Of a DNA stretch of 22,146 bases, positions 1,257 to 22,146 are shown in pieces. Source of the DNA: a virus; IMG/VR virus record IMGVR_UViG_3300007623_000037, positions 1-22,146 of that record; one strand, 5' to 3'. Under the pieces are notes generated by a model. The model was not told the origin of the DNA. It made no database searches and saw only the letters and a list, made by a program, of their open reading frames with translations. Numbering within the stretch: position 1 is the first letter of the stretch; every line of letters starts with the position of its first letter. Made by a program: the position numbers and the translations under genes.

Positions 1257-1574
1257 ATGAATAGCAAAATCGACTCATTTAAAACATTTTTAGAATCAAT
1301 GGATGTAAATGAAATGAGACTAAACAAATATATGAATGATTTAGATGGTAATTTGTTTAAATACACTCATAAAAAAATTATTTTACCAGATTATAATAAA
1401 ATTAAAAAAATGACAGGCGCAAAAGAACAAGAACTAGACGGTTCAGATGACGAAGGTCTTGTTTCTGCACTTATTGTTAATAAAAAACATATATTGACAT
1501 ATGATGAATTTGAAGGTTTAATTTATAGTAATTATCAATTAAAAGATTTATTAAAAGGTAATATTAATAATTAA
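1257..1574 (+). CDS. Unknown late protein with helical N-terminus (105 aa)
   Basis: One of only three plus-strand gene starts in the window. AAAGGAA precedes the ATG, and a TATAAATA element lies 22 bases upstream, which marks it as a late gene. The 105-residue product is acidic/lysine-rich. Its N-terminus MNSKIDSFKTFLESMDV vaguely resembles the capsid-targeting helix of T4 internal head proteins (pattern ...FxxFLxE/S), but this is weak. No domain is recognised. The gene converges on the C-terminal uvsW piece and their 3' ends overlap by 11 bases. A role in the virion is possible given late expression, but not shown. Confidence 0.7.
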   Translation: MNSKIDSFKTFLESMDVNEMRLNKYMNDLDGNLFKYTHKKIILPDYNKIKKMTGAKEQELDGSDDEGLVSALIVNKKHILTYDEFEGLIYSNYQLKDLLKGNINN

Positions 1575-1896
1575 TTTCACTTAATGGATATTCTATTTCT
1601 GATATAGGAAATTCTTCAGGATTATATGAAGTACTTTTTCTATGTTCATATTGTTTATAGAATATCCCACCAGGTTTACGAACACCAAAGTCATCAACTA
1701 AATCATACACAACAAATTCGGATTTAGTTTCATGTAATCTCATACCTCTACCAATACTTTGTGTAACTGTAGTATATGCTTTTAATGGCGAACTCAATAC
1801 CATGTTATGCAATTTTTTAATGTTTACACCAGTTGATAAAAGTTGATACCCTGATACTAATATTTGATTTTGTTTTTCAATCTTTTTTATTTTCAT
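1564..1896 (-). CDS. uvsW: UvsW-like helicase, C-terminal fragment (110 aa)
   Basis: This is the C-terminal end of a T4 UvsW-type superfamily 2 helicase, the enzyme that unwinds R-loops and branched DNA and moves T4 from origin- to recombination-dependent replication. It carries motif V (STGVNIKKLHNMVL), motif VI (QSIGRGMRLH) and a following YDLVDDFG, matching T4 UvsW in order and spacing. The ATG at 1896 is preferred over the one at 1932 because AAAGGAA lies ten bases before it and the homology starts a few residues later (EKQNQILVSGYQ). The start lies inside the 3' end of the endonuclease gene (20-base overlap), so translation is probably coupled. It lacks motifs I-III and cannot act without the other fragment (2668-4041). 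Confidence 0.85.
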   Translation of the reverse strand: MKIKKIEKQNQILVSGYQLLSTGVNIKKLHNMVLSSPLKAYTTVTQSIGRGMRLHETKSEFVVYDLVDDFGVRKPGGIFYKQYEHRKSTSYNPEEFPISEIEYPLSEINY

Positions 1897-2554
1897 AATA
1901 TTCCTTTGCATATTTGGATGTTGTGCCAACATATTTTATATTTTTAAATTCATAGAATAGTTCTTTTGGTATTCGTTTCATAATCTTTTCTTCTAAATCA
2001 AAACACGTAATTGTATTCTTACTTTTTAATCCTTGCTTTTGCTTTGCTTCATCAGAATGTGTTTTACCATACATCCCATTCTTTATACCGACAGAACCCT
2101 TTTTCTTATTGATTTCATCTGAATATTTTCTACCCTTTGATTCTGCAATTAAACCTCTTTCTTTTGCTTCTTGAACATCTATTTTAATCTTATCACCATT
2201 TTCATCTATATAAACAGCTTTGTCTTTAGAATATTTACCTACTTTTCTTCTGAAGTCGTCAGTCACATTTGGACCAACCCCGTCTAATCCATTTTCTTCT
2301 ATTAGATTAGCCCAATTATCTGATTCAACAATATTGTTTTCTCTTGAAAAATTTATTGCAGTGATTATAAGTTCTTCGCATTCATCTTCAAACTCAGCTA
2401 AAATTTCGGTAGATATATCATTACCATATTTCTTTAAGTGATTTCTCCAATATGTACCAGAACCATAATAACCATAAGGATCGTCTTGTTTAGTTTTACC
2501 GAAATATTTTAATCCGGTTTGATTATGGGTTTTTATATAAAGTTTTATAGACAT
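1877..2554 (-). CDS. GIY-YIG homing endonuclease with NUMOD3-like repeats
   Basis: A 225-residue homing endonuclease. The GIY-YIG core is at residues 1-45: 'LYIKTHNQTGLKYFGKTK' supplies the two motif strands, followed by YYGSGTYWRNHLKKYG, typical of phage Seg/Mob-type members. Residues about 140-185 carry NUMOD3-like DNA-binding motifs (GRKYSDE and NGMYGKTHSDEAKQK). The start has GGAG eight bases upstream. The gene sits exactly between the two parts of uvsW and its tail overlaps the start of the C-terminal piece, so it appears to be the invader that split the helicase gene. A late promoter (2688) and a strong hairpin (2593-2642) lie upstream, suggesting late expression. It looks full length. 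Confidence 0.9.
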   Translation of the reverse strand: MSIKLYIKTHNQTGLKYFGKTKQDDPYGYYGSGTYWRNHLKKYGNDISTEILAEFEDECEELIITAINFSRENNIVESDNWANLIEENGLDGVGPNVTDDFRRKVGKYSKDKAVYIDENGDKIKIDVQEAKERGLIAESKGRKYSDEINKKKGSVGIKNGMYGKTHSDEAKQKQGLKSKNTITCFDLEEKIMKRIPKELFYEFKNIKYVGTTSKYAKEYYENKKD

Positions 2555-2592
2555 TTTTATACTCCTATTTTTGATTAATCATAAGAGTGCAG

Positions 2593-2642
2593 TTGGCGGA
2601 CTGCATTTAATAAATTGCCAATCATCTCTTTAAGTCCGCCAA
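2593..2642 (-). promoter_or_regulatory. 10-bp inverted repeat / structured RNA upstream of the endonuclease
   Basis: TTGGCGGACT at 2593-2602 pairs perfectly with AGTCCGCCAA at 2633-2642, with a 30-base loop. A competing hairpin (GCAGT 2589-2593 with ACTGC 2600-2604) shares one arm, and AAGAG copies at 2583 and 2641 can pair with CTCTT at 2626. The G+C-rich stems stand out in this AT-rich genome. The element lies between the late promoter (2688) and the endonuclease start (2554). It has no U-tract, so it is not a simple terminator; a regulatory or intron-like RNA is possible. Confidence 0.6.
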
Positions 2643-2667
2643 GAGTAAAGAAACAAAAGACAATTTA

Positions 2668-4041
2668 CTAAATACCTCTTATATAATTATTTATATATTT
2701 TTCATCAATATCATCATCTTCAGTCAAATCTTTTGCTAACTTTAGTGTTCCGTCTTTCAATTTAACATCATCATTACTATGCAGATGAATTATAGTATTA
2801 TCTTCAAGGGTTATTTCAAAAAAATCTTCTTCGAGAATTTTTCTAGTTTTTTCCCTGGTCTTAGCATCATCACTTCCAGCAATGTAATAAATGCCATATT
2901 TCTTTTGAAATTCAAAACTATGTTTACCTGTTATCTGTTTTTGTTCTATATCAACACCCGGATGTAATTTTTCCATAATACCAAGATACATGGTTTGTAA
3001 ATGATCTATATGTTGCCCAAGAACTAACGTATTACCTTTTGCTCTTAATTTACATGTAAGATTAACAATAAAATCATTTCTTTGTTCATGTTCTTTTAAA
3101 AATTTTAATTGTTTTGCATATAATTTACCAGATTCTTTAAATAAATTTTTATCATTTTTTGAATATTTAAATATTATACTATTAATTTTGATAGGAGTGG
3201 CAAGTCCTCTTTCTATTAAACCAGCACTAGTTATATATGTTTTAGGTAAACCAAATAATCCGAATAATTCCATTTTCATAATTGGATCTTCTGGTAATGT
3301 ACCGGTAAAACCCCATTTAAATTTACAATTTAATGTACTTTTAACAATAGCAGCAGTTTCATTACTAGCGAATCTATGTGCTTCATCAGTTATAACGTAA
3401 TCTAACTTATCAAGTTCATCATGCCAATTTTGCATTGATTGCCAAGTTGATATAGTAAGTGAATTATTGAAATGCCTATCATTATTACCACCACCGATAA
3501 CATGAGTATCATCATAAAGGTCCATAAGATTATAATCCCTAATATCAGATTTAAACTGTGTAAGTAGGTTAATATTTGGAACAAGTAAAAGTCCTTTTTT
3601 ATTTTGTCTTCTCATAAATTCGGCTATTAATGAGATTGTCATTGATTTACCAGAACCTGTACACATCTTATTAATTTGTTTTACATTTAATATTGATTCT
3701 TTAAATGCAATTTCTTGAAAATCATAAGGTGGAAATGGTAAAATTTTTTTAACATCATCTAAATAATTATTAATATCATCAATAGTATAATCAGATTCAA
3801 GTTTCTCTTGTTCTACACCGAATGATTTTAATAATTGTAAATGACCATTCATAACCACTAACATTTTATTTTGAATATTCCCGAAATATTCGTACGGCGA
3901 TTTATAACCAGCTTTAACAGCTGGTTCAAAATATGCGCCTGGTCTTTCTACTTTCAAATATTCAAATAAATTTTTAATAGTTGTATTATCGGATTCTATA
4001 ACAGAAAACGATTCATTTAATTTATTTACAGTTATACTCAT
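2668..4041 (-). CDS. uvsW: UvsW-like helicase, N-terminal fragment with foreign Hint-like tail (457 aa)
   Basis: This is the N-terminal part of a UvsW-type SF2 helicase. Walker A is CTGSGKS (residues 127-133), the DEAH box is YVITDEAHRF (219-222) and motif III is GFTGT (244-248). The second RecA-like domain then runs through 'YYIAGSDDAKTREKTRKILEED' (about 385-406). Homology stops there, just before motif V. Residues 407-457 are unrelated and read like an intein/Hint block B region (EITLEDNTIIHL, then KDGTLKLAKDLTEDDDI), then a stop. The ATG at 4041 is chosen because UvsW homology begins there and the upstream TTG start lacks support. The stop of a 20-codon leader ORF overlaps this ATG (ATGA). 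Function needs assembly with the 1564-1896 product, or repair of the split. Confidence 0.87.
   Translation of the reverse strand: MSITVNKLNESFSVIESDNTTIKNLFEYLKVERPGAYFEPAVKAGYKSPYEYFGNIQNKMLVVMNGHLQLLKSFGVEQEKLESDYTIDDINNYLDDVKKILPFPPYDFQEIAFKESILNVKQINKMCTGSGKSMTISLIAEFMRRQNKKGLLLVPNINLLTQFKSDIRDYNLMDLYDDTHVIGGGNNDRHFNNSLTISTWQSMQNWHDELDKLDYVITDEAHRFASNETAAIVKSTLNCKFKWGFTGTLPEDPIMKMELFGLFGLPKTYITSAGLIERGLATPIKINSIIFKYSKNDKNLFKESGKLYAKQLKFLKEHEQRNDFIVNLTCKLRAKGNTLVLGQHIDHLQTMYLGIMEKLHPGVDIEQKQITGKHSFEFQKKYGIYYIAGSDDAKTREKTRKILEEDFFEITLEDNTIIHLHSNDDVKLKDGTLKLAKDLTEDDDIDEKYINNYIRGI
2688..2695 (-). promoter_or_regulatory. Candidate late promoter for the homing endonuclease
   Basis: The minus strand reads TATAAATA here, inside the last codons of the uvsW N-terminal fragment and about 135 bases before the endonuclease ATG. 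T4 intron-encoded and free-standing endonucleases are often driven from internal late promoters, which this arrangement resembles. Confidence 0.45.
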
Positions 4042-4100
4042 AATATACTTCTTTCTTGTGCTTGCATAACAAACCCAAAACCAACTATACAAATTTTCAT
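4038..4100 (-). pseudogene. 20-codon leader ORF, possible dehydrogenase relic
   Basis: ATG at 4100 follows an excellent AAGGAG, and the 20-residue product starts MKICIVGFGFV, which looks like the first beta-strand and glycine-rich loop of a nucleotide-sugar or related NAD-dependent dehydrogenase (usual form GxGxVG). After residue 11 the resemblance ends and the frame stops in an ATGA overlap with uvsW. An even shorter ORF (4097-4129, MIKYTYKEYI) stops in an ATGA overlap with this one, giving a cascade of coupled starts. Best reading: the 5' end of a deleted gene whose ribosome-binding site now feeds uvsW. The match is too short to be certain. Confidence 0.4.
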
Positions 4101-14619: not shown

Positions 14620-14646
14620 AATATAAGGGGTAAATCCCCTTATATT
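14620..14646 (-). terminator. Perfect 11-bp hairpin at the gp32 stop codon
   Basis: AATATAAGGGG and CCCCTTATATT form an 11-bp perfect stem with a 5-base loop. The stem reaches into the gp32 stop codon and ends 14 bases before the RNase H start. There is no U-tract, so full termination is unlikely. It could block 3' exonucleases and keep gp32 mRNA stable and in excess over rnh, or act as a weak attenuator. Confidence 0.65.
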
Positions 14647-15649
14647 ATACTAATCCGTTTAAAAGATCGTCTAATGATGTAGCGGCTGGTGCAGGTTTTG
14701 CTTCAGCAGTTGGTTGTACTTCAGCAGTAGGTTGTACTTCAGCAGTTGGTTGAGATACCGCGGCAACCGCAGCAGTTGGTTGTACTTCTACAGCCGGTTG
14801 TACTTCTGCAGTAGGTTGAGTAACTGTGGCAACTTCCGCAGTTAATGTATTTGAAGAACCGTTGTTTTCTTCAAATGTAACCCATTTCATTTTATCTTGT
14901 AATTGTTCATAAGTCATAAATGATTCAGGTTTTAATAAATCAGATAGTAAATAAGTATTACCTTTAATATCTTCTAATGCTTCTTCAACAGATCCATAGA
15001 TACTATTTACTTCATTAATCACTTCAGATGAATCATAATTGATTTGTCCATTAGAACCTTTTTTAGCAACCAATCTAAATGAATTACCAGCTAATGGGTT
15101 AAATAATTCTTTTGGTTGAGCACCTAATGATCTATCTTGTTCAGATGGGTCAACAGCATTTTGAATTTTATCTTTCATAGCACCAGACATTTCATATAAG
15201 AAGATTTTACCTTCATTTTCAGGATTTGCTGGGTCTTTTAAAACTTTAATGTTAGTAACATATTTGATACCTCTACCAAATGCTTTAGAACCTAATTGTG
15301 TAATATTACCAGCTTCATCAAATTTATTTTCTTTAATACCACCATTCCATAATTCTTGCCATTTTTCTTGGAACGGGCAAGGTTGTCCGATTGTACTTGG
15401 AGAATATTCAGATACAAATCTTTTTTTACCATTTTTTGTAATTGTAGTATTGATTTTAAATAATTTTTGAATCATACCATTTTTTGAATCAGGTAAGAAC
15501 CTAATTAATGCAGCACCATTACCGTCTTTATCTTTAGATAGTGTATAGAATCTTTCATCTTTACCATATTTGTTAGTTTCCTGTGCGAATGGGTTAACTC
15601 CCACAGCTTCTTTCATTGCGTCAAAATTAAATGCACTTGCGTCGATCAT
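14645..15649 (-). CDS. gp32: Single-stranded DNA-binding protein, T4 gp32 homologue (334 aa)
   Basis: Coats ssDNA during replication, recombination and repair. N-terminal helix (FNFDAMKEAVGVNPF), OB-fold core (ALIRFLPDS..., GIKYVTNIKVLKDPANPENEGKIF is the T4 [20 protein letters not shown] strand), NSFRLVAKK, and an acidic end SLDDLLNGLV matching the T4 C-terminal tip DLDDLLNDL that binds partner proteins. The ATG at 15649 follows AAGGA at ideal spacing, so the longer GTG start at 15682 is rejected. The T4 zinc site (H-C-C-C) is not conserved: only one Cys (QPCPFQEKW) remains in the core region. The C-terminal linker holds QPTAEV-type repeats (see 14698-14823). Confidence 0.93.
   Translation of the reverse strand: MIDASAFNFDAMKEAVGVNPFAQETNKYGKDERFYTLSKDKDGNGAALIRFLPDSKNGMIQKLFKINTTITKNGKKRFVSEYSPSTIGQPCPFQEKWQELWNGGIKENKFDEAGNITQLGSKAFGRGIKYVTNIKVLKDPANPENEGKIFLYEMSGAMKDKIQNAVDPSEQDRSLGAQPKELFNPLAGNSFRLVAKKGSNGQINYDSSEVINEVNSIYGSVEEALEDIKGNTYLLSDLLKPESFMTYEQLQDKMKWVTFEENNGSSNTLTAEVATVTQPTAEVQPAVEVQPTAAVAAVSQPTAEVQPTAEVQPTAEAKPAPAATSLDDLLNGLV
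14698..14823 (-). repeat. gp32: QPTAEV hexapeptide repeats in the gp32 linker
   Basis: Roughly six imperfect 18-base units encoding QPTAEV, QPAVEV, QPTAAV and variants, ending in AKPAPAAT. The linker is Pro/Ala/Glu-rich and lies between the OB core and the acidic tip. Slippage-prone repeats of this kind probably vary in number between relatives. Confidence 0.8.
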
Positions 15650-15777
15650 ATTATTTCCTTTTTTATTCGAGTTTTTAGTCACGTAGGACTTCTTCTAATT
15701 AAATCTATTTTCTTTGTTTATAGTGAATTAACCACTTCTTCAAATATCTTCGAAATTCCAATTTTGAGCCATATTAC

Positions 15778-15820
15778 TCATACAATAATTATATCAATAC
15801 TTTATTTAATAATTGTATGA
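15778..15820 (-). promoter_or_regulatory. AT-rich inverted repeat in the gp32 leader
   Basis: TCATACAAT (15778-15786) pairs with ATTGTATGA (15812-15820) around a 25-base AT-rich loop that includes a TATAAT on the minus strand. The stretch 15650-15881 holds no convincing gene. T4 gp32 represses its own translation by binding its leader, so a structured, AU-rich leader is expected, but no specific operator can be shown here. Confidence 0.4.
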
Positions 15821-15831
15821 ATAATAAGAAA

Positions 15832-15869
15832 ATCCCAAGTTTGGCACATTGTTAAGAGGTGCTTGGGAT
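15832..15869 (-). terminator. Terminator-like hairpin after gp45
   Basis: ATCCCAAG and CTTGGGAT form a perfect 8-bp stem; in the minus direction it is followed by TTTTCTTATT. It lies 13 bases beyond the gp45 stop. A CAC/GTG pair can extend the stem inward. This is the classic form of an intrinsic terminator, although the U-tract is interrupted. Confidence 0.6.
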
Positions 15870-15878
15870 ATGTTATTT

Positions 15879-15886
15879 TATTTATA
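15879..15886 (-). promoter_or_regulatory. Possible late promoter at the gp45 stop codon (for gp32)
   Basis: Minus-strand TATAAATA overlapping the gp45 stop codon. It could give late gp32 transcripts that begin just before the 15832-15869 hairpin. It is weakly supported, since it lies 230 bases from the gp32 start. Confidence 0.3.
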
Positions 15887-16586
15887 CTTTTACTGTAAGT
15901 AAAACCTTATAACCTTCTAATGATTCATTATTTAATAAAATTCTGTAAGAATCTTTTGCCGAATTATATTTTACATCTACTGTATAATTTGATTCTGAAA
16001 ACATTTTAAAATTTTCAACAGGAATTTTAATTTCAAATTCTTTTGATGTATTTGCTGGTTTAGTAACAGAGTATGTATTAGATTTTGCATTAAATTTATT
16101 TGTTGCACCTAATGAAACTTTTACGTCGCCGTCTTTTGATGTAAAAATTACTTCAGTTAAGTCTTTAAATACGCCTGACGCAGATTTAATGTTTTTAATA
16201 TCATCAACTGTTAATTTAAATGTAGCTACACTTGCAACTGCTTCAGTTTTTTCAAAAGGAGTTGCATCCTTGTCCCAAAAATCCATTAACGCCGAATTAG
16301 CAGTAATATATTTAGATTCAGTCGAATCATCACTAATATTAACAACGTTTCCTTCAATGCTAACTGATTTATCATCGCTAAATAATCCAAATAATGAAAT
16401 AAATTCACTTAATGAATCTTTTAGCGGCACGTCTTCAAATACATCGCTATCTAATTTTGAAATATCGCATTGTACTAATACATCCATTGACGATGATACT
16501 GCAACCGTAACAGGGTATTTTAAAATAACTGTGTCAGTAACTTTATTGATTTCCTTTAATACTGTAATAACATTCTTGTTAAACAT
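15882..16586 (-). CDS. gp45: DNA polymerase sliding clamp, T4 gp45 homologue (234 aa)
   Basis: A trimeric clamp that tethers DNA polymerase and, in T4, activates late transcription. Length matches T4 gp45 (228). The order of features fits: N-terminal helix and strand (ITVLKEINKVTDTVILKYP), the central acidic DSLSEFISLFGLF (T4 DLNGFLGILSLV), 'VSIEGNVVNISDDSTESKYI' (T4 AEISQSEDGNIKIADARSTIF), the mid-protein repeat FKLTVDDIKNIKSASGVFK (T4 IKAEDLQQLLRVSRGLQ), and the final strands IPVENFKMFSESNYTVDVKY (T4 INMANMKMQPGNYKLLLW). AAAGGA precedes the ATG. It has its own promoter and a terminator-like hairpin, so it can be made as a single-gene transcript. Confidence 0.88.
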   Translation of the reverse strand: MFNKNVITVLKEINKVTDTVILKYPVTVAVSSSMDVLVQCDISKLDSDVFEDVPLKDSLSEFISLFGLFSDDKSVSIEGNVVNISDDSTESKYITANSALMDFWDKDATPFEKTEAVASVATFKLTVDDIKNIKSASGVFKDLTEVIFTSKDGDVKVSLGATNKFNAKSNTYSVTKPANTSKEFEIKIPVENFKMFSESNYTVDVKYNSAKDSYRILLNNESLEGYKVLLTVKV

Positions 16587-16592
16587 TTCTAT

Positions 16593-16638
16593 CCTTTTTT
16601 TATTTATGTATTATTATATAATAGTTTTATTTAATTTT
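16593..16638 (-). promoter_or_regulatory. gp45: gp45 promoter/leader
   Basis: Minus strand: AAAATTAAATAAAA block, TATAAT (16618-16613), AATACATAA and AAAGG. Nearly the same 46 bases lie before the 150-residue gene (12225-12270). The upstream box differs from the TTGTTTTAAT of the other promoters, suggesting a second promoter class. Confidence 0.6.
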
Positions 16639-16670
16639 TATGTGTTTAAACTCAAAAGAAAAAAATTCTT

Positions 16671-17627
16671 TTAAGCCTTTGTTAATGCATATAGGAAAAA
16701 CCCAATACTATTATAAAATTCATGTTTTGTTTTTGGTACTTTAATAAAACCATCTTCTGTTGATTTAAAGATTGTACTTCCACCGCCAGACAATGAAATA
16801 AAATCACATTTATCTAAAATTTTTCCATATTTAGATTCAATTAACTCTAATAATTCTTTTAGATAACCTTTTTTAACTTCATCAATATAATCATTAAATG
16901 GATGTTTTTGGCCTCTTAGTTTATAAATCCCAGTATCAATAATTTCTTTTGCTTCATGTAAAGTAATTTTTCTACCATGTAATTCAAATACTTTCTTAGC
17001 AACCAAAGTAGCGATTTTCATAACACCTTCTCTTTCAATACCTTCGAATAGATTCGGCGATGTTTTGCCATCTGTTACTAAGAACATATCTAATGTATTA
17101 AAACCAATATCACAACCAACAAAACTAGTCGTTCCTAAAAATTCTTCTTGAGGAGTTGGGAAGTTATTTCCGTATTTATCAATTGTTAACTTAGATCCAG
17201 CACCTTGCGGCAAAATATATACTTCGTCAAAAATAAATCTTTCTTGATTAACTTCAAAATCCATAAGACCTTCTTTAAAATGCCCAGAATTTTCGATTTG
17301 CGCTTTAGAAAGCCCCGAAACAATAATATCAGGTTTTTTCCCAATCATTTTAATTACATGATATAAAAATAGTGGTGCATAATATTCTAAATTTTTATAA
17401 TCAGTAATATCAATTAAGTTCTCTGAAGGTAAATGCAGTGCATTTTCGCCAACATAATAACTATGATCCCTGAAGTCATAAATTCTATTATCTGACACAT
17501 GTTGATTTCTTTTTGTAACGCCGATTGTACTAGTGAATTTAAATTGTTTTTCGATATGTCCTTCTGAAGTACCATAACTTACTTTAACATCACCAAATCC
17601 GATGTCAATTCCTAAAACTGTTTTCAT
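16671..17627 (-). CDS. ParM/Alp-type actin-like ATPase (318 aa)
   Basis: A bacterial-actin-type protein like plasmid ParM/StbA and archaeal or phage Alps, which polymerise with ATP to move or position DNA. Actin-fold signatures: phosphate 1 VLGIDIGFGDVKVSYG (D8, G10, K15), phosphate 2 VGCDIGFNTLDMFLV (170-184, with D173 and D180), and adenosine loop ISLSGGGSTIF (277-287). The end NSIGFFLYAL is also typical. Length 318 fits ParM (320). AAAAGGA precedes the ATG, and a TATAAT (17658) suggests its own promoter. Upstream come a zinc microprotein and two pairs of small proteins; none is clearly a ParR and I see no centromere-like iterons. The fold is near certain, the cellular role open. Confidence 0.88.
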   Translation of the reverse strand: MKTVLGIDIGFGDVKVSYGTSEGHIEKQFKFTSTIGVTKRNQHVSDNRIYDFRDHSYYVGENALHLPSENLIDITDYKNLEYYAPLFLYHVIKMIGKKPDIIVSGLSKAQIENSGHFKEGLMDFEVNQERFIFDEVYILPQGAGSKLTIDKYGNNFPTPQEEFLGTTSFVGCDIGFNTLDMFLVTDGKTSPNLFEGIEREGVMKIATLVAKKVFELHGRKITLHEAKEIIDTGIYKLRGQKHPFNDYIDEVKKGYLKELLELIESKYGKILDKCDFISLSGGGSTIFKSTEDGFIKVPKTKHEFYNSIGFFLYALTKA

Positions 17628-17657
17628 TTTGTAATTATCCTTTTATTTGATATCTAT

Positions 17658-17683
17658 ATTATAATATAATATTATTTAACATT
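17658..17683 (-). promoter_or_regulatory. Candidate promoter of the actin gene
   Basis: Minus strand: AATGTTAAAT overlapping the end of the zinc microprotein gene, ten bases, then TATAAT (17663-17658), about 30 bases before the 17627 start. It matches the 6897 promoter best. Confidence 0.4.
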
Positions 17684-17755
17684 TCCGCATTTACTACAAA
17701 TAACAGAATCATTTAAAGTATTGCATTTTAAGCAAACCCACCATTTATTACTCAT
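17672..17755 (-). CDS. 27-residue zinc-finger microprotein (RanBP2-like)
   Basis: A short gene with a strong AAGGAG five bases before the ATG; the Shine-Dalgarno sits in the intergenic gap after the 17765 stop. The whole protein is one zinc-finger-like unit: W-V-C-L-K-C-N-T-L-N...C-S-K-C-G, i.e. two CxxC pairs at C8/C11 and C20/C23 with the Trp before the first pair and the Asn after the second Cys, as in RanBP2/NZF fingers (spacing two residues shorter than usual). Such fingers bind ssRNA or ubiquitin-like partners in eukaryotes; here the ligand is unknown. It sits between the acidic protein and the actin gene, so it may be part of that operon. Confidence 0.75.
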   Translation of the reverse strand: MSNKWWVCLKCNTLNDSVICSKCGNVK

Positions 17756-17764
17756 AATAACTCC

Positions 17765-18076
17765 TTATAAATCTAATTTCTTTAATTCATCCGCTACTTT
17801 TACAGGACGGTTGACATCATTTATTATAGGTTTTTGAACAATATCTTGAGAAACTGACCCAAATTCAGCATCTAAATCTAAATAGTCATCTGTTCTTTCA
17901 GGTGATTTCTGTTTTGTTTCTTTAGATTCTTGTCGTTTTTTTGTTTTTTGTTGTGTTTCTTTAGGTTTTTTATGTGAATTGTCATCTCCGCCTACCACAG
18001 TACTAGTACCATCTGAAAAGTTTATAGACAATTCATCTATATCTTTTGTACATTCTATAAGTAATCTAAAAGACAT
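17765..18076 (-). CDS. Charged small protein, second copy of the paired module (103 aa)
   Basis: ATG at 18076 (GAG seven bases upstream) is preferred to the GTG at 18088. The gene starts inside the last 11 bases of the membrane microprotein gene, so translation is coupled. Residues 1-28 form a beta-hairpin-like module (LLIECTKDIDELSINFSDG). Residues 33-65 are disordered, Lys/Gln/Glu-rich (KKPKETQQKTKKRQESKE). The end VQKPIINDVNRPVKVADELK, then KLDL, aligns without gaps with the end of the 98-residue protein at 18223 (KP-x-I...V-x2-E-(M/L)-x2-(M/L)-(D/E)). No known family. The shape (small fold, floppy linker, short conserved tail) suggests an adaptor. Confidence 0.7.
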   Translation of the reverse strand: MSFRLLIECTKDIDELSINFSDGTSTVVGGDDNSHKKPKETQQKTKKRQESKETKQKSPERTDDYLDLDAEFGSVSQDIVQKPIINDVNRPVKVADELKKLDL

Positions 18077-18221
18077 GATTAATCTCACTTTTTATTGTAT
18101 CAAAAGTTCTTAACAATATTTGGGTTTCCGTTAATTCTGGATTATTAAATCTTATTTGTAATGATATTAAAACAATATATATTGAAAGAACCAATACAAT
18201 TATTTTTAAAATTAAACTCAT
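18066..18221 (-). CDS. Single-pass membrane microprotein, second copy (51 aa)
   Basis: ATG at 18221 with GGAG eight bases upstream, inside the final codons of the preceding gene. Residues 3-21 (LILKIIVLVLSIYIVLISL) form one transmembrane helix. The remaining 30 residues are polar, probably cytoplasmic (IRFNNPELTETQILLRTFD, then TIKSEINHVF). The tail FD-x-I pattern recurs in the 44-residue protein at 18516 (SSFDNIID). It overlaps the next gene by 11 bases. Function unknown; membrane tether is a guess from its architecture and coupling. Confidence 0.7.
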   Translation of the reverse strand: MSLILKIIVLVLSIYIVLISLQIRFNNPELTETQILLRTFDTIKSEINHVF

Positions 18222-18222
18222 A

Positions 18223-18519
18223 TTAGAACTCCATATCAGTCATTTCTGACGGAACCGCTTTATGTTCTTTTCTTTCAGGTATTTGAGGTTTTTCTACTGT
18301 AACATCATTACTTTCATCATTCATATCTTCTGATATTTTTTTAGAAAATTGCCCATCAATTACATCTTTTGCCATTTCTTCATGTATTTTTCTTGCTTCA
18401 GATTTTTCTATATCTATCTGTGGCATTACATTTGAAACTTCACCGTCTTCAAATTCAATATCAAAAGAAACGCTTTTAATATTTCTATCTTTCGGTAAAT
18501 CTTCTATTTTAATTATCAT
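18223..18519 (-). CDS. Charged small protein, first copy of the paired module (98 aa)
   Basis: The ATG overlaps the TGA of the 44-residue membrane protein (ATGA), preceded by GAGG, so the two are translated together. Residues 1-32 form a beta module (IIKIEDLPKD, IKSVSFDIEFEDGEV). The middle is acidic and helical (EKSEARKIHEEMAKDVI). The end EKPQIPERKEHKAVPSEMTD-MEF is the counterpart of the tail of the 103-residue protein. The gene is not in any family I recognise. Its last codons contain the GGAG used by the following membrane-protein gene, so the whole 18650-17765 block reads as one coupled operon. Confidence 0.75.
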   Translation of the reverse strand: MIIKIEDLPKDRNIKSVSFDIEFEDGEVSNVMPQIDIEKSEARKIHEEMAKDVIDGQFSKKISEDMNDESNDVTVEKPQIPERKEHKAVPSEMTDMEF

Positions 18520-18650
18520 TTTTTTTCCTCATTAATTACTTTCATATCTATTATGTTATCAAACGATGAGTTTAACGTATCGTTTGCATTAAATAAGAAT
18601 AAAATAAAAATCATTGCGATAATCGCAAATAAAATTGTACCATCACTCAT
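18516..18650 (-). CDS. Single-pass membrane microprotein, first copy (44 aa)
   Basis: ATG at 18650 follows AGGGGG, the strongest Shine-Dalgarno in the region. Residues 6-21 (ILFAIIAMIFILFLFN) form a transmembrane helix. The 23-residue tail (ANDTLNSSFDNIIDMKVIN, then EEKK) is polar. It is the first gene after the promoter at 18700. Its TGA overlaps the start of the 98-residue gene. Length, topology and the FD-x-I tail motif make it a likely paralogue of the 51-residue protein at 18066. Confidence 0.7.
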   Translation of the reverse strand: MSDGTILFAIIAMIFILFLFNANDTLNSSFDNIIDMKVINEEKK

Positions 18651-18699
18651 ATAACCCCCTGTTTGATTTACCGTTTAATATCCTTTTTTTTATAATATA

Positions 18700-18725
18700 A
18701 TTATATCAAAAGAATATTAAAACAA
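18700..18725 (-). promoter_or_regulatory. Promoter of the small-protein/actin operon
   Basis: Minus strand: TTGTTTTAAT (18725-18716), then TGATATAAT (18708-18700), an extended -10. It sits 50 bases before the 18650 start and directly after PhoH. Confidence 0.6.
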
Positions 18726-18737
18726 GTTTAAATTTGA

Positions 18738-20111
18738 TTAATTTTCAAATATTTTTTCAGTCCATTCAGTAATTTTACCTCTAACAACTTTATTAAGTTC
18801 AGTTCCGAATATATTTAATTCATCATGTTCAGTCTTTGATGCTTTCATAAGTACAGATAATCCATTTGTATATTTGTTCACATACGGGTGGTCGATTTGT
18901 CTATTAGAACCTATACAAACAACTTTTGAATCTTTATCCATTCTTGATAATACTGTTTGCAAACTAGTTTTGGCAAAGTTTTGTACTTCATCAACAATAA
19001 CGTATGCATTTGAAATAGTTCTACCTCTAATCGACCCATTCCACATTGTTTCTATATTATATTTAGTAATCATTTCTTCAACTTTACTATCAATACTATC
19101 TTGTATATTTACATTTTCTTTTTTCTTCATTTCTTTTTGTGCAATGAATTCTAATGTATCATATAGAGGATAATTATATATTTTAAATTTTTCTTCCAAA
19201 CCTGGCAAGAAACCTACTTCTTCAGCTTTATCTGTGCTTTCAACAGAATTCCTTATATAAATGATTTTATCATATTTACCTTGTCTAACTTGTTTCATAC
19301 CAGCAGCTAACGCTAATAATGTTTTTCCAGATCCAGCCAATGCTTCTATAATACAAACAGCGAACCTTTCATCCAACATACCTGACATAGCGAATAACTG
19401 CCCGACATTTAACGGTTTAACAATATTTTTTCTAAGTTCGTCTTCTTTGATAAAATTTATTTGTTCATTAACAATATATGCTAACTGTTCATTCCCATCT
19501 GTACTTTTAAAATGATAACAATAGTTTTCAATCTTATATTCTGAATCATATTCTTTAATATTTTTCATTTCCATTGAATTAAATATACTAGAATCAATCG
19601 TTAGTTCTTTAATAAATTCATTTGATAATGATTCCTTGTTTCTTAATTGGCCTTCTGTTTTTACATTTAATGATATGGCCCTGGTTCTGCACATAATGTC
19701 ATTAGATAATAATATTGTACTTTCTGGTTGTTCATAATAATTAGTAACAAATTGTGCAACCTTAATGATCTTTCTATCATTGATAACTGATTTATCAACA
19801 TCAACTAAACCGTAATCTTTAAACGATACAATGTCAATAAAAATATCTTTAACTTTAACTGACATAATCGTAACATCTTTTTTAGATCCAGCTTTTTTGG
19901 TTTTAATGACTTCTGCCTCAGATAAAAGTCGGCCAAATTCCCTAGCTTGGAAATTTATTTCGCTGAAACCAGATTTCTTACTATCTAATTCGTCGATTAC
20001 TGTTTCAGGAAGAACAATTAAGTTTTCTCCAGATTGACCTATTGCAATCAATTGATTTGCATCTTCTAATATTATATTAGTGTCTAGAACATATATTTTT
20101 TCAAAATTCAT
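18738..20111 (-). CDS. phoH: PIN-PhoH protein (PhoH2-type RNase/helicase, 457 aa)
   Basis: An N-terminal PIN nuclease domain with acidic residues D10 (VLDTNI), E36 (PETVIDELD), D112 (NDRKI) and D138 (SNDIMCRTRA) is followed by a PhoH ATPase domain: Walker A LAGSGKTLLALAAG (258-271), YIRNSVES, GFLPGLEEK, Walker B VIVDEVQNF (372-379), and GSNRQIDHPY. PhoH2 proteins unwind and cut RNA; PhoH-like genes are common in marine T4-like phages. The four PIN acids appear intact. The start has GGAG eight bases upstream and begins three bases after the upstream gene's stop, so the two are coupled. The extended promoter at 18700 separates it from the small-protein operon. Confidence 0.92.
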   Translation of the reverse strand: MNFEKIYVLDTNIILEDANQLIAIGQSGENLIVLPETVIDELDSKKSGFSEINFQAREFGRLLSEAEVIKTKKAGSKKDVTIMSVKVKDIFIDIVSFKDYGLVDVDKSVINDRKIIKVAQFVTNYYEQPESTILLSNDIMCRTRAISLNVKTEGQLRNKESLSNEFIKELTIDSSIFNSMEMKNIKEYDSEYKIENYCYHFKSTDGNEQLAYIVNEQINFIKEDELRKNIVKPLNVGQLFAMSGMLDERFAVCIIEALAGSGKTLLALAAGMKQVRQGKYDKIIYIRNSVESTDKAEEVGFLPGLEEKFKIYNYPLYDTLEFIAQKEMKKKENVNIQDSIDSKVEEMITKYNIETMWNGSIRGRTISNAYVIVDEVQNFAKTSLQTVLSRMDKDSKVVCIGSNRQIDHPYVNKYTNGLSVLMKASKTEHDELNIFGTELNKVVRGKITEWTEKIFEN

Positions 20112-20114
20112 TAC

Positions 20115-20651
20115 TTATTCTCCATCGGTTATTTCAAGTTCATTCAATACATATGCGATTCCGTCTTTAAAAGATAATTCGTTATCACTTAACTCGGTAT
20201 TATTTAATTCATCATAATATTTTAAAATATCTTGTAGCTTTTCTTCTAAATGATTCTCAACAGCTCTTGTTTCTTTTTCAATTTTTTCTGCTTTTTCAAT
20301 TATTTTTATTATATTGTCTTTATATTTAATTTCAAACCATTCTTTTGATAGTGTAGTGGGTGGTGTATTATCATACATATAAGCCAAAATTTTTCTTTCT
20401 GTTTCATTTATATCTTCAAACATTTCAGATATATACAACATTTTACAAGTAGGATAAGGCCGGTCAGAATTATATCCAACTAGTCTTTTAAAACAATCGC
20501 TAGTTCTTCCTACTTTGATATACGCTGGAAATAAAGAATCGTATACAATATACATAAATCCTCGCCGATCCGTATATTTTTCTTGTTGAGGTACCTTATA
20601 ATCTCTTAAATCAAAATCTTCAAGATCTTCGGTATTCGGTACTTTAATCAT
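20115..20651 (-). CDS. T5orf172-type GIY-YIG-like protein (178 aa)
   Basis: Residues 31-110 match the T5orf172/MUG113 branch of the GIY-YIG superfamily: GFMYIVYDSLFPAYIKVGRT (the two strands, with KVGRTS as YIG equivalent), FKRLVGYNSDRPYP and an E-x2-E helix (EDINETERKILAYM), then the closing KEWFEI. These are nucleases or inactive relatives found in phages and in DNA-modification contexts. The N-terminal 30 residues and the glutamate-rich coiled C-terminus (120-178) are extra. AAAAGGAG precedes the ATG. It is directly upstream of phoH in the same transcript. It is not an obvious homing endonuclease because it does not interrupt anything. Confidence 0.75.
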   Translation of the reverse strand: MIKVPNTEDLEDFDLRDYKVPQQEKYTDRRGFMYIVYDSLFPAYIKVGRTSDCFKRLVGYNSDRPYPTCKMLYISEMFEDINETERKILAYMYDNTPPTTLSKEWFEIKYKDNIIKIIEKAEKIEKETRAVENHLEEKLQDILKYYDELNNTELSDNELSFKDGIAYVLNELEITDGE

Positions 20652-20684: not shown

Positions 20685-21344
20685 TTAAATTAAATATTTC
20701 CCAGATTCGTCGCCTCTAATTTTTACTTGTTTATATTTACCATCTTCGAAATATGGTGTTTCGGTAAATTTTACTAATTTTTCAGTTTCCCTAAATACTT
20801 TAAAGTTTAACTCGGATTCAAATCTACCGGGTTCTTTAAAATCGTTATTATTTTCCAATAAAATTTGATTGTCATCTAAAAAATTTTTTATCATCTTATT
20901 TGTAGCTAAACACACTCTATATTTATTACTATAATATTTGCCGAAATACCAAATTTTTCCAGGATAATCTTTTGATAGTTGTTGTGCTTCTTCTCTATTT
21001 CTTATTGTAAAAAATACCGAGTATTCCGATTTTCTTGATTCTTTTAATGGCTCGTTCTCAATAAATTTTAATAATGCGGCCGGGCCGTTGTCGTTTTCTC
21101 TTCTAAGTAAAATATATTCTTCATTGGGTCTTAGCGGTTTTACAGTATTTACCATCCACCGATTTTCAGAATTTGTAGATTTGTCATAATTAACCATTAT
21201 AGGTTCTTTTTCTAATTCAAAATACCAATTAAACGGTGGTTTTATATTAATATATTCTTTAAATTCGATTTTGTTGTTTTTTAGAGCTTCTTTACATTCA
21301 TTATAAAATGTAATAGAATAATAAGGATCTATCGTAATAAACAT
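20685..21344 (-). CDS. Unknown late protein (219 aa)
   Basis: A 219-residue protein that I cannot place. It begins MFITIDPYYSITFYNECKEA and shows a mixed alpha/beta pattern with many aromatic residues (INIKPPFNWYFELEKEP, GKIWYFGKYYSNKYRVCLA) and a C-terminal GRFESELNFKVFRETEKLV. No signal peptide or membrane helix. A TATAAATA lies 20 bases before the ATG and AAAAGGA nine bases before it, so it is a late gene, probably virion-linked or involved in lysis/attachment timing. It is isolated from the FG-GAP gene upstream by a strong terminator. Confidence 0.7.
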   Translation of the reverse strand: MFITIDPYYSITFYNECKEALKNNKIEFKEYINIKPPFNWYFELEKEPIMVNYDKSTNSENRWMVNTVKPLRPNEEYILLRRENDNGPAALLKFIENEPLKESRKSEYSVFFTIRNREEAQQLSKDYPGKIWYFGKYYSNKYRVCLATNKMIKNFLDDNQILLENNNDFKEPGRFESELNFKVFRETEKLVKFTETPYFEDGKYKQVKIRGDESGKYLI

Positions 21345-21414: not shown

Positions 21415-22146
21415 TTATTCAAATATATATACTGAACCTGCATCACCGATTCCATTTGGATCTTCCTGAGGTGCGCCAACTATAATTTTAGATTCATTAC
21501 ATGCTACTGAAAAACCAAAATAATCATATGATGCAGCATCAGAAGCAACAATTTTAATCTCATTGGTTCCATCTAAATCATATACATATACTGAACCTGC
21601 ATTAGCAAGGCCATTTGGATCTTCATAAGGTGCACCAACTATAATTTTAGATTGATTACATGCGACTGATACACCAAAATAATCATCTGCTGCAGCATCA
21701 GAAGCAACAATTTTAATCTCATTAGTTCCATCTAAATCATATACATATACTGAACCTGCATCGCCGATTCCATTTGGATCTTCATTATATGCCCCAACTA
21801 TAATTTTAGATTCATTACATGCTACTGAATAACCAAATCTATCACTTCCATCAGCATCAGAAGCAACTATTTTAATCTCATTGGTTCCATCTAAATCATA
21901 TACATATACTGAACCTGCCCCGGCGATTCCATCTGGGTCTTCATTATATGCACCAACTATAATTTTAGATTCATTACATGCTACTGAATAACCAAAATAA
22001 TCACTAACCGCAGCATCAGAAGCACGAATTTTAATCTCATTAGTTCCATCCAAATCATAAACATATACTGAACCTGCAGCACCGATTCCATTTGGGTCTT
22101 CATAATATGCACCAACTATAATTTTAGATTCATTACATGCTACTGA
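21415..22146 (-). CDS. FG-GAP beta-propeller repeat protein, N-terminus beyond window
   Basis: The frame is open to the right edge, so the start is outside; 243 residues are visible. They consist of about 4.5 copies of a 53-residue repeat: DLDGTNEIKIVASDA, DYFGxSVACNESKIIVGA, EDPNGIGDAGSVYVY. This is the FG-GAP_2 form of the integrin-alpha beta-propeller blade (FG..., VGA..., AGSVYVY). The DxDG loop could bind calcium. The protein ends shortly after the last blade (SVYIFE). Such repeats in a phage suggest an adhesin or receptor-binding structural protein. Its late timing is inferred from the neighbouring terminator and late unit only. Confidence 0.85.
   Translation of the reverse strand, partial: SVACNESKIIVGAYYEDPNGIGAAGSVYVYDLDGTNEIKIRASDAAVSDYFGYSVACNESKIIVGAYNEDPDGIAGAGSVYVYDLDGTNEIKIVASDADGSDRFGYSVACNESKIIVGAYNEDPNGIGDAGSVYVYDLDGTNEIKIVASDAAADDYFGVSVACNQSKIIVGAPYEDPNGLANAGSVYVYDLDGTNEIKIVASDAASYDYFGFSVACNESKIIVGAPQEDPNGIGDAGSVYIFE
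21423..22146 (-). repeat. 159-bp tandem repeats encoding FG-GAP blades
   Basis: About 4.5 head-to-tail copies, period 159 bases, with long identical blocks (for example around TAATCTCATTGGTTCCATCT, at about 21555, 21714, 21873 and 22032). Differences cluster at two places per unit: before FG (residues about 16-19) and after VGA (about 37-47). Confidence 0.9.

Follow-up and report, generated by a model that had tools for sequence, protein, structure and literature searches.

An apparently undescribed actin-adaptor module in T4-like and other large phages

The window, that is the whole stretch of DNA that was analysed, is a virus record of 22,146 bases, and our attention was on its minus-strand block 16671-18650. 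An ORF check placed six ORFs here, nearly end to end and with intergenic gaps in the actin operon of less than 100 nt, so that the same-strand cluster of six genes with short gaps described in an earlier note on this DNA is real. Read in the direction of transcription, they encode a single-TM protein (44 aa), a charged protein (98 aa), another single-TM protein (51 aa), a second charged protein (103 or 107 aa), a small CxxC..CxxC protein (27 aa) and a protein of 318 aa. A Shine-Dalgarno-like purine-rich stretch was clear for five of the six genes, that of the actin gene being weaker. As the operon is flanked by a PIN-PhoH gene on one side and by genes for a gp45-like clamp and a gp32-like SSB on the other, we consider the window to be a fragment of a T4-like phage. 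The features are listed below, the two charged proteins being called adaptor A and adaptor B.

18738-20111, minus strand: PIN-PhoH protein, neighbour (Pfam PhoH 8.7e-46, PIN_4 8.5e-19)
18516-18650, minus strand: 44-aa single-TM microprotein, accessory (ORF; no phage relative)
18223-18519, minus strand: adaptor A, 98 aa, tandem relative of adaptor B (32-member alignment A4)
18226-18294, minus strand: adaptor A C-terminal block and tail (..ERKEHKAVPSEMTDMEF) (alignment A4)
18066-18221, minus strand: 51-aa single-TM microprotein, accessory (ORF; no relative in 50,697 phage records)
17765-18076, minus strand: adaptor B, 103 aa (32-member alignment A3)
17999-18076, minus strand: adaptor B conserved N-terminal block (MSFRLLIECTKDIDELSINFSDGTST), predicted beta-hairpin (alignment A3; AF2)
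17768-17833, minus strand: adaptor B conserved C-terminal block and tail (KPIINDVNRPVKVADELKKLDL), putative actin-binding element (alignment; AF2 pLDDT 79-89)
17672-17755, minus strand: 27-aa CxxC..CxxC zinc-ribbon-like microprotein, accessory (ORF)
16671-17627, minus strand: actin-like ATPase of ParM/Ta0583 type, phrog_691, 318 aa (Pfam, PHROG, AF2, Foldseek)
15882-16586, minus strand: T4 gp45-like sliding clamp, neighbour (phrog_223 2.4e-20)
14645-15682, minus strand: T4 gp32-like SSB, neighbour (Pfam gp32 3.9e-27)

The 318-aa protein has the fold of the actin/ParM superfamily together with its three nucleotide-binding motifs. It matched Pfam ALP_N (4.3e-10) and MreB-like_C (5.1e-10), both above the Pfam cut-offs, and is a member of phrog_691, annotated 'partition protein' (E = 1.3e-38). 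AlphaFold2 (AF2) modelled it with a pLDDT of 91.3 and a pTM of 0.88, and a Foldseek search with this model gave Ta0583 (1e-17) and pCBH ParM (1e-16) as the best PDB folds. Searching the PDB with the single actin sequence returned nothing useful and a profile was required, which identified pCBH ParM as the nearest solved relative (E = 7.6e-11). Across 41 phage sequences the phosphate-1, phosphate-2 and adenosine motifs are intact, with D8, G10, K15, D173, G175, T178, D180 and G281-283 invariant or nearly so. The ParM/Alp-type phage actin recognised in the earlier note is therefore secure by Pfam, phrog_691, AF2 and PDB folds. Homologues were found in 35 of 50,697 phage records, at identities of 78% (Vibrio Va1/pv27/phiKT1024), 51% (Campylobacter Firehammervirus), 45% (Rhizobium Kleczkowskaviridae), 43% (Acinetobacter Ab1-TPeters) and 39% (three other Vibrio phages).

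The two charged proteins, whose conserved tails had also been remarked upon, proved to belong to a single family whose N- and C-terminal blocks are conserved, each protein ending in a short acidic-hydrophobic tail (..VA.ELQNLDF). The family plan is an N-terminal hairpin block, a charged low-complexity linker and a tail of the form P.I..R..(V/I)(A/P).E(L/M)..(L/M)(D/E)(F/L). Both the 26-aa N-terminal block, [KR]I.IE......I..I.I.F..G, and the C-terminal P.I....R block are common to the window pair and to the proteins whose genes lie immediately upstream of the actin gene in the Va1 group, the Rhizobium phages, Va2, 150E35-1 and 1.031.O. Residues F3, F20, D22 and G23 of the adaptor B N-terminal block are invariant in alignment A3, as are M1, P90, E92 and M93 of adaptor A in alignment A4 (32 members). 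Adaptor B was listed as a 107-aa ORF starting at GTG 18088; its homologues favour ATG 18076 (MSFRLLIEC..), which we therefore take as the better start. AF2 runs, carried out with the rows from the annotated phage collection left out of the alignments, predicted a short N-terminal hairpin, a disordered middle and, at higher confidence, a C-terminal block. In the adaptor B model the strands span residues 15-19 and 25-29 at a pLDDT of about 80, and the linker lies at about 50-68. Among the 1,571 ORFs of phage pv27 the tail motif is unique to adaptors A and B.

Two adaptor copies, A then B, are present in the window group, while one was found in the Rhizobium, Acinetobacter, Va2-like and Campylobacter phages and in three further contigs (L041, L035, L042). 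Profiles of the single-copy and B-type adaptors aligned over their full length (E = 6e-14). Since adaptor A aligned with adaptor B in its C-terminal block and with the single-copy adaptors in its N-terminal block, the pair is most simply explained by tandem duplication. Neither adaptor matched Pfam, NCBIfam or the PDB, and the sole match in PHROG was to one small unnamed PHROG. The open literature that we searched held no description of the family, an absence which is no proof of novelty.

The adaptor accompanies the actin across deeply diverged phages, one-to-one, even where the two genes lie far apart. Adaptor relatives occur in the same genomes as the actin in all 35 phage records, representing five deeply diverged phage groups (15 Campylobacter, 10 Rhizobium and 6 Va1-group records, with Va2, 150E35-1, 1.031.O and Ab1-TPeters). 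Because there are few members per lineage these are not 35 independent events, and the independent units for the link are the lineages, about five to six, rather than the records. A hypothesis-free all-against-all comparison of every ORF lying up to 8 kb from the actin in six diverged lineages showed that, besides the actin itself, the adaptor was the only family found in five of the six; the next commonest, an RNA polymerase subunit, was found in three. In the sixth lineage, Campylobacter Firehammervirus, the adaptor is present but tens of kb from the actin (F379: adaptor 44796-45095, actin 95512-96498; CP220: adaptor 125899-126195, actin 61960-62946). These adaptors were recovered by profile at E = 7e-5 and 2e-3 (sequences P0001 and P0002) and their sequences are unmistakable (MIIEIKDFP..VKRVVLEFDDSG ... 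VVIPDIEREANVSATMQNLKL). Within Campylobacter phages the adaptor-bearing records are exactly those that bear the actin (15 and 15, with vB_CcoM-IBB_35 split over two contigs). A Campylobacter membrane protein encoded next to PAAR had also surfaced as an adaptor relative through drift in HMM iteration; it was rejected as false, since cleaned profiles matched it weakly or not at all.

When 2.9 million viral contigs were scanned with the adaptor B alignment alone, 36 loci came back, all 36 of them with the actin in the DNA retrieved. Single-sequence scans with the Ab1 and 1.031.O adaptor types found no relatives among the viral contigs, and in two related contigs (L047 and L048) the actin was present with no adaptor within the few kb examined. 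On the actin tree the adaptor is spread over all phage branches, the deep forks of this tree being poorly supported. Linkage of the actin to the charged proteins is thus clear in other phages, as shown by the kind of gene-neighbourhood survey that the earlier note had called for, and contrary to the lack of linkage that it had named as counting against its idea. A cassette of adaptor A, adaptor B and actin was also seen in a contig that had been assigned to a MAG of an uncultured Rickettsiales (L106, CAMKKS010000014.1), which is probably a phage contig, or from a phage of that host.

The reading that we favour, and place just on the probable side, is that of a phage cytoskeletal module made up of an actin-like filament protein and its dedicated adaptors, one or two in number and from a new family, the charged proteins being the actin's likely partners. 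Such an actin would polymerise with ATP, and the adaptors would grip its filaments by the conserved tail at their C-terminus, much as ParR grips ParM. The N-terminal beta-hairpin may cluster the adaptors or dock them on cargo, with the disordered linker giving them reach. Because no DNA-binding fold could be recognised in the adaptor and no repeat centromere was seen, the cargo is probably reached via another phage protein, most simply a replication complex; the filaments might in this way position or spread replicating phage DNA. No cargo candidate was common to all lineages.

An alternative, which we regard as unlikely, is classical ParMRC-type segregation, in which the adaptors would be ParR proteins that have diverged to an extreme and act on DNA at a centromere that escaped recognition. 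The phage actin is in the same family as plasmid ParM/StbA, its PHROG bears the name 'partition protein', and the partners found beside plasmid ParMs likewise have a structured N-terminus, a charged linker and a short C-terminal tail. However, the adaptor N-terminal block of about 26 aa carries a net charge of -3, making it no obvious DNA binder, and its two predicted strands and lack of helices do not allow for a ribbon-helix-helix; nor did the adaptors match Pfam or the PDB. No ParR-type ribbon-helix-helix adaptor was found beside the phage actin, adaptors A and B being without matches and modelled by AF2 as a short hairpin with disorder. Likewise, no parC-like iterons, sought as at least three short clustered repeats, were detected in window positions 15600-20200 or in three further contigs (L018, L002, L004), the repeats seen being coding low-complexity or scattered matches only, and the gaps between the genes of the window's operon are short. 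Lytic T4-like phages, moreover, have no evident need to segregate at division. The earlier note had seen neither a ParR nor a centromere, and to this extent it stands for the DNA beside the actin; the adaptor that it had counted as missing is probably present in the form of the charged proteins. In the DNA searched the module falls outside ParMRC by adaptor type and centromere, while its working may be similar, and a diverged DNA-binding partner may lie elsewhere in the genomes.

Distant relatives of the actin in plasmids and bacterial genomes lacked the adaptor family. The ones examined have a gene of 92-110 aa immediately downstream, the N-terminus of which resembles the ParR ribbon-helix-helix by eye; these ParR-looking genes matched no Pfam model. 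At three plasmid loci (L126 2884-3177, L127 2923-3255 and L128 2869-3147) the ParR-like gene overlaps the ParM stop codon, and its product, outside all Pfam families, has a C-terminal tail ending AWG, EGF or YGW.

Rather more doubtful is the model put forward in the earlier note, in which the adaptors, and with them the actin, are held at the inner membrane by the TM microproteins. The window has two TM/adaptor pairs, a 72-aa TM protein lies between adaptor B and the actin in one related contig (L014), and in Campylobacter Firehammervirus the gene for a single-TM protein of 83 aa lies immediately ahead of the unlinked adaptor (L100 2009-2260, L101 2134-2385). AlpC of prophage CGP3, too, has been proposed to carry phage DNA to the membrane (PMC4446434). 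However, a TM gene adjoins the adaptor only in the window, L014 and two Campylobacter phages, and is absent in about 35 of the 39 surveyed loci; neither TM microprotein of the window had a detectable relative in 50,697 phage records. The zinc microprotein gave only weak short matches in these records, with a 38-aa counterpart at the same position in a single locus of the 39 (L060), and the near-identical contig L012 alone shares all of the window's microproteins. With neither the TM nor the zinc microproteins conserved, membrane tethering is unsupported as a general mechanism, and we regard them as optional, lineage-specific extras. The Firehammervirus TM/adaptor pair is independent, a suggestive echo of the window's pairs which is too rare to carry the tether model. 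TM-like ORFs noticed inside adaptor B in five contigs (L017, L018, L020, L021, L060) were discarded as out-of-frame overlaps.

Improbable, again, is that the adaptors regulate filament dynamics through nucleation, capping or bundling, in place of attaching cargo. Two tandem tail-bearing proteins with disordered linkers would suit multivalent nucleation or cross-linking, and AlpA and AlfB each have an effect on the dynamics of their own actin (PMC5539076). Such a role is, however, compatible with the module that we favour and does not exclude cargo attachment.

The acidic-hydrophobic clamp-binding tails of T4-type proteins, which those of the adaptors superficially resemble, and the clamp and SSB genes that come after the actin in the window and the Va1 group could suggest that the adaptor tails bind the sliding clamp and that linkage to the actin merely reflects a shared replication operon, but this is very improbable, as no gp45-type clamp was detected in the adaptor-bearing Rhizobium, Acinetobacter, Va2, 150E35-1 and 1.031.O phages (a diverged clamp could escape), the pv27 polymerase, SSB, clamp-loader and gp55-like tails lack the adaptor motif, and across lineages the adaptor tracks the actin and not the clamp.

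Turning back to the actin-adaptor module, the only phage actin with an adaptor for which our literature search found experimental work was AlpAC of the Corynebacterium glutamicum prophage CGP3, in which AlpA binds to alpS DNA and efficient replication of the phage requires AlpA and AlpC alike (PMC4446434, PMC5539076). The likeness is a phage-encoded actin-like protein with a small co-transcribed adaptor, in CGP3 one that is needed for efficient phage DNA replication. In contrast to AlpA, which binds specific alpS sites in a Gram-positive prophage and was compared by description only, the adaptor family of the window shows no DNA-binding fold and occurs as one or two IDP-like copies in large lytic phages. 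Type II partition systems (ParMRC, AlfAB, pCBH ParM, ParM/StbA) share the actin superfamily and a partner ending in a short C-terminal tail, as in the structure of R1 ParM with the ParR C-terminal peptide (PDB 4a62), but the phage cassette has no ParR-like helical DNA-binding domain or parC-like iterons, and its adaptor family was unrelated by any search.

The archaeal actin homologue Ta0583 is the closest PDB fold (E = 1e-17, TM 0.77), although only 18% identical to the window actin, and is not known to have such an adaptor. PhuZ, which positions phage DNA in nucleus-forming jumbo phages, is likewise a virus-encoded cytoskeletal protein, but a tubulin where the window protein is an actin. CorM/CorR of Anabaena (PDB 9rmi) is, by the title of its PDB entry, a ParM-like filament solved with a named partner present, from a cell and not a phage. 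No literature was found on the Firehammervirus partition proteins.

The actin-adaptor module is real and apparently undescribed. A bolder proposal, which we offer tentatively, is that it represents a widespread, centromere-free cytoskeleton of lytic phages, in which an ancestral ParM of plasmid type parted with its DNA-binding ParR and acquired intrinsically disordered, tail-bearing adaptors, at first single and then duplicated, through which the filaments are coupled to a cargo of protein, for example the phage replisome. If true, lytic T4-like and other large phages would build an actin cytoskeleton with an adaptor that does not bind DNA. Phage actins are annotated as 'partition protein', and beyond a single prophage they have been little studied. 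Finding that a partner accompanies the actin in every group examined, even unlinked, makes of this orphan annotation a machine of two or three components that can be tested, with the short conserved adaptor tails as directly testable candidates for actin binding.

Elsewhere in the window, beyond PhoH, positions 20685-21344 (minus strand) encode a protein of 213-219 aa starting MF(I/V)TIDPYY, which in related phages is often encoded directly upstream of adaptor A or near it (L014, L019, L027, L039, L046, L051, L052, L106). Tandem repeats of about 50 aa (..FGYSVACNESKIIVGAYNEDPNGIGDAGSVYVYDLDGTNEIKIVASDA), FG-GAP beta-propeller-like, occupy 21415-22146 (minus strand) and are open at the contig end. 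At 1564-4092 (minus strand) a UvsW-like helicase gene lies in two parts: the N-terminal part (2668-4092), with a Hint/intein-like stretch at its end, is followed by a GIY-YIG-like ORF (1877-2554) and then by the C-terminal helicase part (1564-1932), an arrangement that may reflect a decayed or split intein, or an intron.
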